Origin: Nitrospira sp.
GTDB lineage: Bacteria > Nitrospirota > Nitrospiria > Nitrospirales > Nitrospiraceae
Reading direction: 5' to 3'
Length of the DNA: 64,000 bases
Assembly: GCA_036984305.1 (NCBI GenBank)
Contig: BQWY01000001.1
Span: 1,943,501 to 2,007,500, forward strand
Positions 40,579 through 47,203 of the stretch are shown piece after piece. The notes beneath the pieces are model-generated. The model was not told the DNA's origin. It made no database searches and saw nothing but the letters and a program-made list of their open reading frames with translations. The position numbers were made by a program, and so were the translations under genes. Position 1 is the first letter of the stretch. Every line of letters starts with the position of its first letter.

Positions 40579-42789
40579 TCATAGGATCAATAATCCGGCA
40601 CGACGCAACTCTCTCCATGCCGGGCTCTTCATCCAGAGCTCACATTTCTTAAGGCCTCCGAGTGGGTACCCCTCCCTAGCCGTCGACAGCAAGGGATAAG
40701 GCATTTGTTTCGCGTGTTGTATCGGAGAGGCGTTTCGCAGTAGCGCAATCAGCCATTCGGATACGGCGTGCGGCAGCCGGAGGACCGTGTCTTCAGTTTT
40801 AGATGGAAGTACTAGTGTGGTAGTCCGAGACTCCCACCGTTCGATGATGGGATCCGTCCCGAGCCAGATCAGCCGTCCCCGGAGCGATCCGGACTGGCGA
40901 GTGTCGGCGTGGGCAGCAGCCTGACTGGCCCAGAAACGCGAGACGCGGGGAACTCGGACCGGGCGTTCAAACCAGCAGGGCACTTTGGTGCTGAACCCTC
41001 GTCCCTCCACAAACTCCCCCACGGCCAAGCGGAGGCCTTTTCCCAACCATTCCGGACAATCTCCCTTCACATCGATGTGAATCAGGTCATTGTCGGCAAA
41101 TCCGGCAAACGAAGGCCCCACAATTTTGATTCCATGCGACTTGGGATCGAGGCCGACGGGACTATGCGCCGTGGCGACGAACCTGTGCCAAAAGGCGGAT
41201 TGAACGAGGTCGGCGGCGAAGAGCTGCCGCACGCGCTCCAGGCTTTCCACGGTTTCGTCGACGGTTTCACTGGGGAAGCCATACATGAGATACGCGTGGA
41301 TCAGAATTCCGGCGGCGCGGAAGGCGGCGGCCACGCGGGCGGTTTGGTCTACCGTGATGCCCTTTTTCATTTTGGTCAGTAACCGGTCCGAGGCGACTTC
41401 GAGGCCGGCGCTGACCGCGATGCATCCGGAGGCGGCGAGTAACCGGCAGAGGTCCGGGGTGAACGACTTTTCGAAACGGATGTTGCCCCACCACGAAATC
41501 GACAGACCTCGCTCCAGCAGGCCGATCGCCAGCGCTTTCAGCGCCGCCGGGGGCGCCGCCTCATCGACGAAATGAAAGCCGCGTCGGCCGGTTTCCGCCA
41601 CGAGGGCCTCAATTCGATCCAAGAGAACGGTGGTGCGGGTGGCGTCGTATCGGCCGATGTAATCGAGACTGACGTCGCAGAACGTGCATTGCTTCCAGTA
41701 GCACCCGTGGGCCACGGTCAGCTTGTTCCAATGTCCATCCGACCAGAGACGGTGCATGGGGTTGGTTGTGTCGAGGATGGAGAGGTACCGTTCGAGGTCG
41801 AGACCGTCATAGGTGGGCGTGCCGGTGTCGTCCATGCGGATATCGGCGTCTCCTGTGCCCCGCAGGTAGTCGACGCGATTATGGCCGGTGCGAACAAACG
41901 TGCGGGTGAGTGACGATTCGTTCCGAAGCCCTGCGAGGGACTCCAGGATCGAGAGGAGTGGCCGCTCGCCGTCGTCGAGCGTGACGTAATCGACGTAGTC
42001 GAACACCCGAGGGTCGGTGAGTCGCCGCAGTTCCGTGTTCACATACCCGCCGCCTAGCACCAGCTTCATGGCGGGCCAGCGGGCTCGTACGGCCTGCGCG
42101 AGACGGAACGCCCCGTAGAGGTTTCCGGGAAAGGGTACGGTGAGCCCAATGACGGTTGGCTCGTGTCGTCGCACCTGCCGCTCCAGGGCCTCGATGGCCC
42201 AATGGTCGGTCAGGCTCGGGGGTGCCTCCAATGCGGCTAGAACTTGATCGAAGGTGCTGGCCGATGTTCCGACGTGTTCCGCGTATCGGCTCAAGGCGAA
42301 CTGGGGTGCGATCGTCTGACCGATCAGGTCGGACAAGTCTTCCAGATAGAGCGTCGCCAAATGTTTGGCGTGATCGGTAGCCGAGAATCTGAGGTGCCGA
42401 CCTGTCACGCGACGGAGTCGGGCAAATCGGGGTCCTTCGGGGAGTAGTGTCCGTTGAACGATGCGGGTGGCAAGAGAGGAGTCCCTGCCTTGGAGAAATC
42501 GAATCACCGGATCGATGGTGTCCACATACGCGGGCGCCAGGGCCAGCATTTGTTTGGCTTCCCCCTGTAACTCCAACCGGTGCGCGCGCAGGATTTCGAA
42601 GACCCGCGCGAGACCGGATTTCGAAAAGAGGGCCAGCACCATATCCATCCCCACATCTGCCTGTGCGACCTCACACCCACGGGTCCGGAGGAATCCAGTC
42701 AGATAGGCGGTCGAGGGGTACGGGGTGTTGAGCTGAGTCAGAGGCGGAATCACAAGGAGCGTTCGCGGGAGCAAAGCGGCTGTCGCCAT
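40579..42789 (-). CDS. B12-binding-type radical SAM protein
   Basis: The 736-residue protein has an N-terminal cobalamin-binding-like Rossmann region (LLVIPPLTQLNTPYPSTAYL and IGLTVPFPGNLYGAFRLA, VLGGGYVNTEL) and then a radical SAM barrel. The cluster-binding motif is GCYWKQCTFC, that is C-x4-C-x2-C, one residue longer than the usual C-x3-C-x2-C. Downstream landmarks GLEVASDRLLTKMKKG and AYLMYGFPSETVDETVESLE are standard for this class. The C-terminal 200 residues are family-specific. It starts 45 bases after the RuBisCO-like gene ends, on the same strand, so both are likely one operon. Substrate unknown; methylation, ring rearrangement or C-S chemistry are typical for the class. Confidence 0.82.
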   Translation of the reverse strand: MATAALLPRTLLVIPPLTQLNTPYPSTAYLTGFLRTRGCEVAQADVGMDMVLALFSKSGLARVFEILRAHRLELQGEAKQMLALAPAYVDTIDPVIRFLQGRDSSLATRIVQRTLLPEGPRFARLRRVTGRHLRFSATDHAKHLATLYLEDLSDLIGQTIAPQFALSRYAEHVGTSASTFDQVLAALEAPPSLTDHWAIEALERQVRRHEPTVIGLTVPFPGNLYGAFRLAQAVRARWPAMKLVLGGGYVNTELRRLTDPRVFDYVDYVTLDDGERPLLSILESLAGLRNESSLTRTFVRTGHNRVDYLRGTGDADIRMDDTGTPTYDGLDLERYLSILDTTNPMHRLWSDGHWNKLTVAHGCYWKQCTFCDVSLDYIGRYDATRTTVLLDRIEALVAETGRRGFHFVDEAAPPAALKALAIGLLERGLSISWWGNIRFEKSFTPDLCRLLAASGCIAVSAGLEVASDRLLTKMKKGITVDQTARVAAAFRAAGILIHAYLMYGFPSETVDETVESLERVRQLFAADLVQSAFWHRFVATAHSPVGLDPKSHGIKIVGPSFAGFADNDLIHIDVKGDCPEWLGKGLRLAVGEFVEGRGFSTKVPCWFERPVRVPRVSRFWASQAAAHADTRQSGSLRGRLIWLGTDPIIERWESRTTTLVLPSKTEDTVLRLPHAVSEWLIALLRNASPIQHAKQMPYPLLSTAREGYPLGGLKKCELWMKSPAWRELRRAGLLIL

Positions 42790-42834
42790 ATTGCCTCACA
42801 TAACACAGGCTCACGCATGGTGTCTGCTGAATTT

Positions 42835-43995
42835 CTACGGCGCCGGCGTAATGGCCTCGATGAATCGTTGGCTGGCACGACGTATTCCATCCGGTGCATG
42901 TTGAATGCGGCTGCCCAGGACGTAGACGACATCCTGTCCATACAGGCTGCGAACGGCGTCGATCTGCTCGAACCCGATGCGGCCCGCAGCGGTCGGAAAA
43001 ATGGCGGGCAACCGAAGTACAGAGGTGGCTGTCGCCGCAGCGATGCTCGCGCAATCATCACGGCCTAGGCCGAAGTCCGGTCCCCATGTCGGGTAGATGG
43101 TCACGTCCGCTCCAAAGAGACGAGGGAAGGTTCCGTAGAGGACGGCCGGAGCTATGCCCTGAGGGGAATGGAGTGCGTACGTTCCGAGCAGGGCCGGATG
43201 GCTGAAGATCGGTAAACTGATGGTTTCGTCCTCAGCCAGTTCGCGCATGACATCATAGCCGGTGAGTCCGGGGCAGATGAGGAGCCCTCCAGCGCCGGCA
43301 TCCTTTGCGATCCTCGCGCGTTTTCGAACCTCTGTGGGGGGACCGCTGACATGGGCCACGTATCGACAGGTTCCCCCCGACAGCCGGTTGGCTTCCGCGA
43401 CCGCTTCGGCACAGGCGCGTACTCGGTCTTGGAATCGACAAAACACGTGGTCGCTCATCCCCTGGTCGTCCTTGATCCAGTCCACCCCACCGAGAGCGAA
43501 CTCCCGGGCGAGCGATGCGAGGGCGTCCGGTGTCAGACCGAGCGGTTTCAAAACCGCACACACCATCGGGCGGGTCGGCGTATGTGTCAACGTGCGAAGG
43601 CCTGGCCGTCCGTATCGCGCTCCCGAAAACGGGATGACCGCTTGTAAAGGAAACTCCAATCCGACGAGCCGAATGCCGGGTTTGAGGCTGCAGGTACCGA
43701 AAAGCACGTGCAATGCCTCAGCGGCTGTGCGGCCGAAGAGCTCCAGGGGAAAACTGATCGTCGCGCTGGACTGTCCCTCGTCGACGGCCTCGATCGATTC
43801 GACTCGTCCAATCAATTCTCCGCGGATGGGGCCATCCGGGATAATTTCGGCGGCAGTCTCGACGGTTTGGTCCGTGCAGATGAGATCGGCGGTTCGCCGG
43901 GCGGCTGCCCCGATGGCTTGTATCCAATAGGTTGCGGTCATCCGTTCGCCGGAGAGTTGCAGGGAAGGTGGGGGAGTAAAGCGAATAGAGGGCAT
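42835..43995 (-). CDS. RuBisCO-like protein (form IV)
   Basis: The 386-residue protein has the RuBisCO large-subunit fold: an N-terminal alpha/beta domain (ATYWIQAIG, SATISFPLELFG, YGRPGLR) and a TIM barrel with VLKPLGLTP (Lys150 matching the catalytic lysine), GGVDWIKDDQGM (Lys175-Asp-Asp, with Gln178 where carboxylases have Glu) and SHPALLGTY. The second lysine of K-P-K is missing and loop 6 lacks the usual G-K, so it cannot be a carboxylase. RuBisCO-like proteins act as enolases, isomerases or in related sulfur or sugar-acid steps. An internal ATG at 43941 (ATYWIQ) is an alternative start. It heads an operon with the radical SAM gene and is divergent from the cyclase gene. Confidence 0.88.
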   Translation of the reverse strand: MPSIRFTPPPSLQLSGERMTATYWIQAIGAAARRTADLICTDQTVETAAEIIPDGPIRGELIGRVESIEAVDEGQSSATISFPLELFGRTAAEALHVLFGTCSLKPGIRLVGLEFPLQAVIPFSGARYGRPGLRTLTHTPTRPMVCAVLKPLGLTPDALASLAREFALGGVDWIKDDQGMSDHVFCRFQDRVRACAEAVAEANRLSGGTCRYVAHVSGPPTEVRKRARIAKDAGAGGLLICPGLTGYDVMRELAEDETISLPIFSHPALLGTYALHSPQGIAPAVLYGTFPRLFGADVTIYPTWGPDFGLGRDDCASIAAATATSVLRLPAIFPTAAGRIGFEQIDAVRSLYGQDVVYVLGSRIQHAPDGIRRASQRFIEAITPAP

Positions 43996-44100
43996 GGATC
44001 ACAGGTATCACATGGCCGCGGACGCTGCTAGTATGGTGGCGTCTGTCATGGCAGGTCATTAGGCGGTCCAGCCCGATTGAGATCGAATTGAGGGGTGTCT

Positions 44101-44910
44101 ATGGCTAGCTGGAGAGCAATTGTAATCGCATTCTTGATGAGCGCGACTTTACAAACGGTTGGATGGGCGCAGGTCGACGAGCGCCGGCTGCTCGATCTGA
44201 CGTATGCCTTCGATGAGCATACGTTGGCCTGGCCCGGGAACGAGCCCTTTCGATGGGAACGGGCTGCCTGGGGACGGTCAGAATCGGGAAATTGGTATGC
44301 CGCAGGAAATTTCCGCATGGCGGAACACAGTGGCACGCACCTTGACGCACCCATTCACTTTGCAGAGGATCGCCAGACGCTCGATGCCATTCCGCTGCAC
44401 CGCTTGATCGGCCCCGCAGTCGTGATGTCTGTCGCGGATCAGGTGAGCGCGGACGCCGACTACCGCCTCTCCGTCAAGGAGTTGCTCCGCTGGGAGGGTC
44501 AGCATGGCCGAATTCCAACAGGAGCCATCGTGTTGCTGCACACGGGCTGGGGCGCCCGCTGGCCGGACAGGAAGCGGTACTTTGGAAGTGAGACGCCCGA
44601 CGATGCCACAACCTTGCACTTCCCGGGCTACTCGCGTGAAGCGGCAGAATGGCTGGTCCGCGAGCGTCAGATACGCGGAGTTGGGATCGACACGGCGAGC
44701 ATCGACTATGGACCCTCGCAAGACTTCCCGGTCCATCGCGTGCTCAACACCGCCAACGTGTATGGGTTGGAAAATATAGCGAATCTCGACCGTGTGCCTG
44801 CGACTGGGGCCACACTCATCGCGATGCCCATGAAAATCGCCGGCGGCACAGGAGGCCCTGTCCGCATCGTGGTCGTCCTGCCGGACGGAGCCGGACGGAG
44901 TTTGCCATGA
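44101..44910 (+). CDS. Secreted cyclase-family (kynurenine formamidase-like) hydrolase
   Basis: The 269-residue protein has a signal peptide (residues 1-23, ending GWA) and the family metal-binding motif HSGTHLDAPIHF near residue 80, followed by GAIVLLHTGWGARW and a C-terminal GIDTASIDYGPSQDFPVHR. Cyclase-family enzymes hydrolyse amides or lactones using a metal centre. It is therefore predicted to be periplasmic. Its stop overlaps the start of the dehydrogenase gene (ATGA). It is divergent from the RuBisCO-like gene across about 105 bases. A GTG two codons upstream (44095) is also possible. Confidence 0.83.
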   Translation: MASWRAIVIAFLMSATLQTVGWAQVDERRLLDLTYAFDEHTLAWPGNEPFRWERAAWGRSESGNWYAAGNFRMAEHSGTHLDAPIHFAEDRQTLDAIPLHRLIGPAVVMSVADQVSADADYRLSVKELLRWEGQHGRIPTGAIVLLHTGWGARWPDRKRYFGSETPDDATTLHFPGYSREAAEWLVRERQIRGVGIDTASIDYGPSQDFPVHRVLNTANVYGLENIANLDRVPATGATLIAMPMKIAGGTGGPVRIVVVLPDGAGRSLP

Positions 44911-45785
44911 AGGTGGCGGTACTCGGCACGGGCCTGATGGGACGGGCAATCGCCGAGCGATTCCTGGCCTGCCGCCGTCCTGTCGTCGTGTACAATCGGA
45001 CCACCGCTAAAACAGCGCCGCTCGCCGCACTCGGGGCCGAGGTCGCGGACACTCCGGACGACGCGATACGACACGCTTCGTATGTGCTCCTCCTTCTCTC
45101 CGATGCCGAGGCTATTCGGTCACTGTTACCGTTACACGACCGGCCGGAGACGATCCGACATCGCGTGCTGATCCAGATGGGCACCATCGGGTCGTCCGAG
45201 AGCCGGGACTTGGAGCGTGCCGTCGTGAATTCCGGGGGCGAGTATCTTGAAGCGCCGGTGCTGGGAAGCCTTGCCGAAGCCAAGGCTGGTGAGTTGCTCG
45301 TGATGGTTGGGGGAACGAGAGACCAGTTTGATCGGTGCAGGGACGTGTTGTCTGTTTTAGGAAAGAGGCCGCAACTGATTGGCCCCGTCGGGCACGCGGC
45401 GAGCCTGAAATTGGCACTCAATCAATTGATCGCCTCCCACATCGCCGCATTCTCCCTCAGTCTCGGCTACCTCGATCGGGCCGGCGTGTCGATCGACGCG
45501 TTTCGAACGATTTTGGGGGAGAGTGCGCTCACGGCGCCGATGTTCGAGAAGAAATACCCTCGGCTCGCAGCCCGTCGATACGACACCCCGAATTTCTCGG
45601 TGCGGCATCTGCTCAAGGACGTGCGCTTGTTTCTGAGGGAGGCGCAGGTCGCCGGGCTCGATACACGAAGTCTCGATAACGTGCCGACGCTCTTGGACGC
45701 GGCTATAGACCTGCATCGAGGGGACGAAGATTATTCGGCTGTGTACGAAGCGATCAATCCGGCGCCGAAGGGACCGTCCGGATAG
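44907..45785 (+). CDS. Beta-hydroxyacid dehydrogenase, NAD(P)-binding
   Basis: The 292-residue protein has the nucleotide-binding VLGTGLMGRAIAERF at the N-terminus, VYNRTTAKTAPLAALGA next (Asn-Arg-Thr suggests NADP preference), YLEAPVLGSLAEAKAGELLV (substrate-binding block) and GHAASLKLALNQLIAS with the catalytic Lys. It belongs with 3-hydroxyisobutyrate, glyoxylate/succinic semialdehyde and tartronate-semialdehyde reductases. The tight overlap with the secreted cyclase gene suggests a shared pathway despite different compartments. Confidence 0.88.
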   Translation: MKVAVLGTGLMGRAIAERFLACRRPVVVYNRTTAKTAPLAALGAEVADTPDDAIRHASYVLLLLSDAEAIRSLLPLHDRPETIRHRVLIQMGTIGSSESRDLERAVVNSGGEYLEAPVLGSLAEAKAGELLVMVGGTRDQFDRCRDVLSVLGKRPQLIGPVGHAASLKLALNQLIASHIAAFSLSLGYLDRAGVSIDAFRTILGESALTAPMFEKKYPRLAARRYDTPNFSVRHLLKDVRLFLREAQVAGLDTRSLDNVPTLLDAAIDLHRGDEDYSAVYEAINPAPKGPSG

Positions 45786-46507: not shown

Positions 46508-47203
46508 ATGAGTCAATCGATGCGCGCTGAAACAGCGAAGACCTGGTTATCCTGGAGCAGCGGAAAAGATAGCGCCTGGTGCTTGCACGTGCTCCGGCAG
46601 CGAATCGACGTCACGGTGGTAGGGCTGGTGACCACGGTCAACCGGGAGGCTCGCCGGGTCGCCATCCATGGCGTGCGAGAAACATTGGTGCAGGCGCAGG
46701 CGGATGCGCTGGGCCTTCCCTTGATCGCCGTGCCGCTCCCGCAACCGTGCAGCAATCAGGAGTACGAAGCGGCGATGGAAGACGTGTGGTCGCGCGCGTG
46801 CGAGGAAGGGGTGACGCATATTGCATTCGGTGACTTGTTTCTGGACGATATCCGCCGCTATCGCGAAACCCAGCTTCAGCCTACCGGCTTGACTCCCTTG
46901 TTTCCCATTTGGGGGCTTGATACCGGGGGGCTCGCTCGGCGAATGGTCGCCTCTGGGCTGCAGGCCGTCGTGACGTGCGTGGATTCACGAAGGTTGGACG
47001 CCTCCTTTGCCGGACGGTCCTTCGATCACTCGTTTCTTGACGATTTGCCGGAAGGGGTAGACCCGTGCGGCGAGCGGGGAGAATTCCACACCTTCGCGTT
47101 CGCCGGTCCGATCTTCGAGCGCGCACTACCGATCATCGCCGGCGAGCGCGTGGAGCGTGATGGGTTTGTATTCGCAGACGTGCGACCACGAGAGGTGTCA
47201 TGA
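46508..47203 (+). CDS. Diphthine-ammonia-ligase-like PP-loop protein
   Basis: The 231-residue protein has a PP-loop LSWSSGKDSAWCLHVL, then VGLVTTVNREARRVAIHGVR and the conserved ITHIAFGDLFLDDIRRYRE-type block, ending GERGEFHTFAFAGP, which are the hallmarks of the adenine-nucleotide alpha-hydrolase group related to archaeal/eukaryotic diphthamide synthetase. Bacteria do not make diphthamide, so the true substrate is unknown. It overlaps the DUF4112 gene by four bases. Confidence 0.8.
   Translation: MSQSMRAETAKTWLSWSSGKDSAWCLHVLRQRIDVTVVGLVTTVNREARRVAIHGVRETLVQAQADALGLPLIAVPLPQPCSNQEYEAAMEDVWSRACEEGVTHIAFGDLFLDDIRRYRETQLQPTGLTPLFPIWGLDTGGLARRMVASGLQAVVTCVDSRRLDASFAGRSFDHSFLDDLPEGVDPCGERGEFHTFAFAGPIFERALPIIAGERVERDGFVFADVRPREVS

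Follow-up and report, generated by a model that had tools for sequence, protein, structure and literature searches.

RuBisCO and its relatives share a common chemistry, enolisation by a carbamylated lysine together with an acid/base lysine, and in RuBisCO, Gly381 and Gly404 contact a phosphate. Both glycines, as well as Glu204, are active-site residues around the ligand 2CABP (PMC9570433). Two RuBisCO-like proteins (RLPs) have been described in Rhodopseudomonas palustris: RLP1, a DeepYkr-type 5-methylthioribulose-1-phosphate isomerase, and RLP2, which belongs to the Photo clade (PMC5893883). Here, we describe an RLP of Nitrospira sp. that is related to the DeepYkr type and carries other residues at the positions of Glu204, Gly381, and Gly404. 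It is encoded in a stretch of 64,000 nucleotides (the window; G000:C1:1943501-2007500) of a 4.35 Mb genome, G000, beside genes for a radical SAM protein, a putative cyclase, and a beta-hydroxyacid dehydrogenase family protein (HADH).

The closest described systems differ from the window RLP in defined ways (residues are numbered as in the window RLP unless RuBisCO is named). The DeepYkr RLPs (R. palustris RLP1 and Rhodospirillum rubrum RLP, a 5-methylthioribulose-1-phosphate 1,3-isomerase; structure 3qfw) have in common with it the KDD motif, the equivalents of Lys150 and Lys175, and a similar length, but the window RLP has glutamine for histidine at the RuBisCO Glu204 position and arginine and serine for the glycines at RuBisCO positions 381 and 404, and it is accompanied by no transketolase, cupin, or mtn gene. 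H-type RLPs encoded in mtnK-mtnA-transketolase-RLP operons (such as those of Clostridium ljungdahlii, L110, and Alicyclobacillus, L135), which represent the parent family in the tree and are ~37-43% identical to the window RLP, carry His178, Gly339, and Gly362 and, unlike it, lie in an operon with genes for the salvage of 5'-methylthioadenosine (MTA). MtnW, the 2,3-diketo-5-methylthiopentyl-1-phosphate enolase and the outgroup in the tree, has the superfamily fold and catalytic lysines in common with the window RLP, but keeps the Glu204 equivalent and the loop glycines that are replaced in the latter.

A remodelled active site

The gene and the codons that carry the argument are as follows.

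42835-43995, minus strand: RuBisCO-like protein (RLP, form IV) of the Nitrospiraceae-specific 'KDDQ' clade; 386 aa; PF00016, E = 4.6e-20
43546-43548, minus strand: Lys150 codon; position of RuBisCO Lys175 (general acid/base); invariant
43471-43473, minus strand: Lys175 codon; position of RuBisCO Lys201 (carbamylated); invariant
43462-43464, minus strand: Gln178 codon; position of RuBisCO Glu204 (metal ligand); His in 100% of the H-type sequences compared
42979-42981, minus strand: Arg339 codon; position of RuBisCO Gly381 (phosphate loop 7); Gly in 100% of the H-type sequences compared
42910-42912, minus strand: Ser362 codon; position of RuBisCO Gly404 (phosphate loop 8); Gly in 100% of the H-type sequences covering the position

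When 48 sequences with glutamine at position 178 (Q-type) were compared with 64 H-type sequences, the changes from His to Gln at 178, from Gly to Arg at 339, and from Gly to Ser at 362 were each found to be fixed (100% versus 100%), and less strict changes were seen as A148V, M152L, H283P, P336A, and E42D. In aligned MtnW-type structures, the positions of 178, 339, and 362 are occupied by Glu, Gly, and Gly. The AlphaFold model of the window RLP (pLDDT 92.4) places the three residues just past the barrel strands 173-176, 333-337, and 357-360, at their C-terminal ends. Lys150, Lys175, Asp177 (the equivalent of RuBisCO Asp203), and His266 are kept in the Q-type RLPs, and the equivalents of the carbamylated lysine, Asp203, and Lys175 of RuBisCO are invariant among sequences that are just ~40-55% identical.

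We infer from the retained catalytic lysines that the enzyme is active, and from the exchanges at the metal site and at the glycines of the two phosphate loops that its substrate, or the way in which the substrate is bound, has changed; as read from these residues, an enolising enzyme with a changed substrate is most likely. The RLP would take and return a proton beside a carbonyl, in an enolisation or a 1,2- or 1,3-isomerisation, with the proton transfer using carbamylated Lys175, Asp177, and Lys150. Phosphate loops 7 and 8 would probably no longer bind the substrate in the usual way, and Arg339 and Ser362 may instead accommodate an anionic group that is different or differently placed. Tentatively, and at somewhat less than even confidence, we propose that the KDDQ clade may be a functionally new class within the RuBisCO superfamily, in which an enolising RLP derived from a methionine-salvage isomerase has exchanged the metal ligand and the two phosphate-binding glycines for other residues and would act on a different, possibly non-phosphorylated substrate. 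No report of a clade with this set of replacements (E204Q/G381R/G404S) and its genomic setting was found in the open-licence papers searched; the family itself is known.

Family and origin of the RLP

The window RLP scores 72.5 bits against PF00016 (cut-off 30.1), and its model aligns with RuBisCOs and RLPs at query-normalised Foldseek TM values of 0.82-0.88; by its fold and catalytic domain it is a form IV member of the RuBisCO superfamily. True RuBisCOs (forms I-III) were excluded by Gln178, Arg339, and Ser362 at the positions of Glu204, Gly381, and Gly404 and by scores far below the NCBIfam RuBisCO cut-offs, and an MtnW enolase was excluded by a TIGR03332 score of 127 bits, the cut-off being 513.6. 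Both sequence and fold place it with the DeepYkr type, the best match and closest solved relative being 3qfw from R. palustris (sequence E 1e-61, 34% identity; fold TM 0.86-0.94), which is presumably RLP1 because 2qyg is labelled rlp2. At the active site, the DeepYkr family shares a histidine after KDD and a glycine in each phosphate loop, none of which the window RLP has.

A scan of one genome per species, covering 84,980 species, yielded 80 RLP loci. The loci from outside Nitrospira have KDDH where the window RLP has KDDQ, with one exception at the position (L113, a translated match). The 48 Q-type sequences form a single clade (support 100) that is nested in the H-type sequences, and this clade groups with two other Nitrospiraceae RLPs, from G010 (His) and G011 (Ser), with a support of 89-93; the result holds without the diagnostic columns and the long-branched 3qfw. 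Sequence phylogeny places the window RLP in a Nitrospiraceae-only clade of single origin, derived from the DeepYkr-like (5-methylthioribulose-1-phosphate isomerase-type) family. The G010 RLP (L013/L027) keeps His178 and starts directly after a split transketolase pair. The G011 RLP (L014/L028), which branches beside the Q clade, has serine at the metal-site position instead of histidine or glutamine, possibly another change at the same metal site.

Genomic context of the parent H-type family

The C-terminal half of a transketolase lies directly upstream of the RLP in 31 of the 64 H-type loci and in none of the Q-type loci. Within ~6 kb of the RLP, mtnA is present in 11 and mtnK in 8 of the 80 scan loci (in C. 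ljungdahlii, L110, both score above curated cut-offs), and no mtn gene was seen to adjoin the RLP at any Q-type locus. An operon of the order mtnK-mtnA-transketolase(N)-transketolase(C)-RLP was observed at L110:5716-11152, L089:5671-11164, L135:5722-11131, L145:5788-11128, and others; it is kept in Clostridium, Alicyclobacillus, and other lineages, across several phyla. This gene order suggests that the H-type operon is a variant of methionine salvage in which the transketolase would act on the RLP product in place of the cupin. The open-licence papers searched held no relevant report on an RLP with a transketolase, on a Nitrospira RLP, or on the conversion of 5-deoxyribulose to 1-deoxyxylulose-5-phosphate. 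At two loci (L123:2299-4577 and L134:9986-11589), the RLP lies near a cupin and no transketolase is present; the cupins of both loci are related, and the best PDB match of the L123 cupin is Rru_A2000 (3jzv), which we take to be the R. rubrum methylsulfurylase. Judging from these two cases only, the RLP may take either a cupin or a transketolase as its partner.

The locus and its conservation in Nitrospiraceae

All four open reading frames of the locus are intact, and the remaining features are as follows.

40579-42789, minus strand: radical SAM protein; 736 aa; CX4CX2C motif; PF04055, 9.2e-12
43996-44094, no strand: divergent intergenic region between the RLP and cyclase genes, ~100 bp; spacing of <1 kb kept in 25 genomes
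44095-44910, plus strand: putative metal-dependent cyclase; PF04199, 1.1e-43; isatin hydrolase/kynurenine formamidase superfamily; probably secreted
44907-45785, plus strand: beta-hydroxyacid dehydrogenase family protein (HADH); PF03446/PF14833 (NAD_binding_2/NAD_binding_11), 3e-30/1.9e-17

The four genes of the initial annotation were confirmed at the stated coordinates and strands, as were the 45-bp gap between the RLP and radical SAM genes (42790-42834, both on the minus strand) and the overlap of the cyclase and HADH genes (both on the plus strand), which measures 4 bp (44907-44910). At the level of sequence, the assignments to RuBisCO_large, Radical_SAM, Cyclase, and NAD_binding_2/11 are solid; none of the four proteins reaches an NCBIfam equivalog cut-off. 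The radical SAM protein scores 45.9 bits against PF04055 (cut-off 29.5), and its [4Fe-4S] motif is CX4CX2C rather than the usual CX3CX2C in 20 of 20 loci inspected. It had been called B12-type; the radical SAM part of that label holds, and the B12 part rests on a sub-threshold match to PF02310 (28.9 bits; cut-off 32.1). The B12-binding radical SAM families PhpK and rSAM_ocin show a distant domain likeness to it (E 1e-22 to 1e-25), but scores of 79-87 bits against cut-offs of 282-600 give no family assignment. The cyclase, which has the PDB relatives 8f9x and 5nmp, has the HxGTHxDxPxH motif and an N-terminal hydrophobic signal-like segment ending in VGWAQ; it is probably secreted, and its earlier description as periplasmic is plausible from a reading of this segment alone. 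The HADH keeps the catalytic-type Lys168 in the motif KLALNQ.

Conservation was examined in 120 Nitrospiraceae genomes, each at least 90% complete; many of them share ancestry, so that neighbourhood counts do not represent independent events, and contig ends limit the counts. The RLP is present in 60 of the genomes, the radical SAM gene in 111, a cyclase relative in 84, and the HADH in 58. Among the 60 RLP genomes, the radical SAM gene lies on the same strand within 6 kb in 34, lies elsewhere in 22, and is lacking in 4, and the cyclase is divergent from the RLP within 1 kb in 25. The pairing of the RLP with the radical SAM gene and the divergent position of the cyclase both recur in several genera, and in genus g19 a gene that reads as HD-GYP-like stands between the RLP and radical SAM genes. 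The exact four-gene order is found in just 2 of the 120 genomes (G000 and G012), and the conserved four-gene operon was rejected on this count; the neighbours for which the initial annotation had asked conservation do recur, yet not as one unit, so its expectation failed in part. It was right that the RLP/radical SAM pairing is not a standard methionine-salvage arrangement. Co-occurrence does not make the radical SAM protein a partner of the RLP, as its gene is near-universal with or without the RLP; beyond Nitrospiraceae, 85 of 246 genomes from other families and classes of the phylum carry it too. In Q-type loci where the RLP is not beside the radical SAM gene (L023, L026, L078, L120, and L139), no common neighbour was found. 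The four genes thus make up a neighbourhood that recurs in Nitrospiraceae and not a dedicated four-gene pathway, with the remodelled RLP as its distinctive part. The full explanation, which adds to this an enolising RLP with a changed substrate, we hold at about even odds; in it, the radical SAM protein and cyclase would be neighbours of separate function, with genes that accompany the RLP and are possibly co-expressed with it.

Some further observations concern the surroundings of these genes. In relatives, a peroxiredoxin gene adjoins the radical SAM gene; its best match in G000 (88% identity) is ~70 kb off, and the region between the two (G000:C1:1914268-1984082, overlapping window positions 1-40578) carries polysaccharide-type genes as far as the window shows, and looks like a large insertion. 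A record titled Candidatus Parvibacillus calidus (L081) shows the Nitrospira arrangement of RLP, HD-GYP, and radical SAM genes, and in the tree its RLP falls within the Nitrospira clade; it is probably a mislabelled genome. At window positions 46508-47203, adjoining a DUF4112 gene, lies a bacterial gene for an ATP pyrophosphatase of the diphthamide synthase family (PF01902).

Alternative explanations

The window RLP may have kept its ancestral function, isomerising 5-methylthioribulose-1-phosphate (from MTA) to 1-(methylthio)xylulose-5-phosphate or 5-deoxyribulose-1-phosphate (from 5'-deoxyadenosine) directly to 1-deoxyxylulose-5-phosphate, with the neighbouring radical SAM protein as the source of by-product 5'-deoxyadenosine. 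This is possible, and we consider it doubtful. In its favour, the RLP retains Lys150, Lys175, Asp177, and His266, mtnK and mtnA are found linked to H-type relatives, and the nearest solved structure comes from an R. palustris RLP that is presumed to be RLP1, an enzyme with isomerase activity (PMC5893883). The absence of an mtn gene, noted earlier for the surroundings of the RLP, holds only locally: G000 has mtnA (G000:C1:2313384) and mtnP (C1:2945607) elsewhere, both above curated cut-offs, and no class II aldolase (PF00596; MtnB or Ald2) was found in it. However, mtnA and mtnP are near-universal in relatives, whether these carry the RLP or not, and the aldolase is absent from roughly half of the genomes in the RLP and RLP-less groups alike; without a visible anticorrelation, the RLP was rejected as a replacement for the MtnB/Ald2 aldolase. 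A two-sequence query for the Rru_A2000-type methylsulfurylase cupin gave no match in G000, and several RLP-less relatives show the same gap as G000, so co-occurrence lends the old role no support. The replaced metal-site residue and phosphate-loop glycines and the lack of mtn genes beside Q-type RLPs also speak against it.

The same replacements, a glutamine where a metal-site Glu or His is expected and two altered phosphate loops, would fit a catalytically inactive RLP with a binding or regulatory role. We regard this as unlikely, since the invariance of the catalytic residues at such low overall identity suggests continued catalysis. Least probable is the joint pathway of the initial annotation, in which a periplasmic cyclase would open a lactone or amide, the HADH would oxidise or reduce the product, and the RLP and radical SAM protein would rearrange it. 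The compact order in G000 and G012, the 25 divergent cyclases, and a loose co-occurrence of the RLP with the HADH and the cyclase (odds ratios of 3.5 and 3.8, confounded by phylogeny) agree with it, but the HADH lies within 3 kb of the RLP solely in G000, G012, G019, G020, G030, and G153 (6 of the 38 genomes with both), the radical SAM gene is present in 55 genomes that lack the RLP, the cyclase still lies near it in 4 of these (e.g., L059 and L061), so that this adjacency can outlast the RLP, and the cyclase is probably in another compartment. The proposal of an enolising RLP with a changed substrate and separate neighbours also has points to answer. In five genomes from four genera, a gap of just 49-106 bp separates the RLP and radical SAM genes, and such conserved adjacency could mean a real link between the two. 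The position of the Q-type sequences within the H-type ones has only SH-aLRT values of 85-93%, with no bootstrap. A metal-site change can mean loss of catalysis, and a phosphorylated substrate may be bound in another orientation.

Implications

About half of the examined Nitrospiraceae genomes carry an RLP. If the change in the active site does mean a new substrate, a reaction would be added to the RuBisCO superfamily, and Gln178, Arg339, and Ser362 would be defined residues to test.

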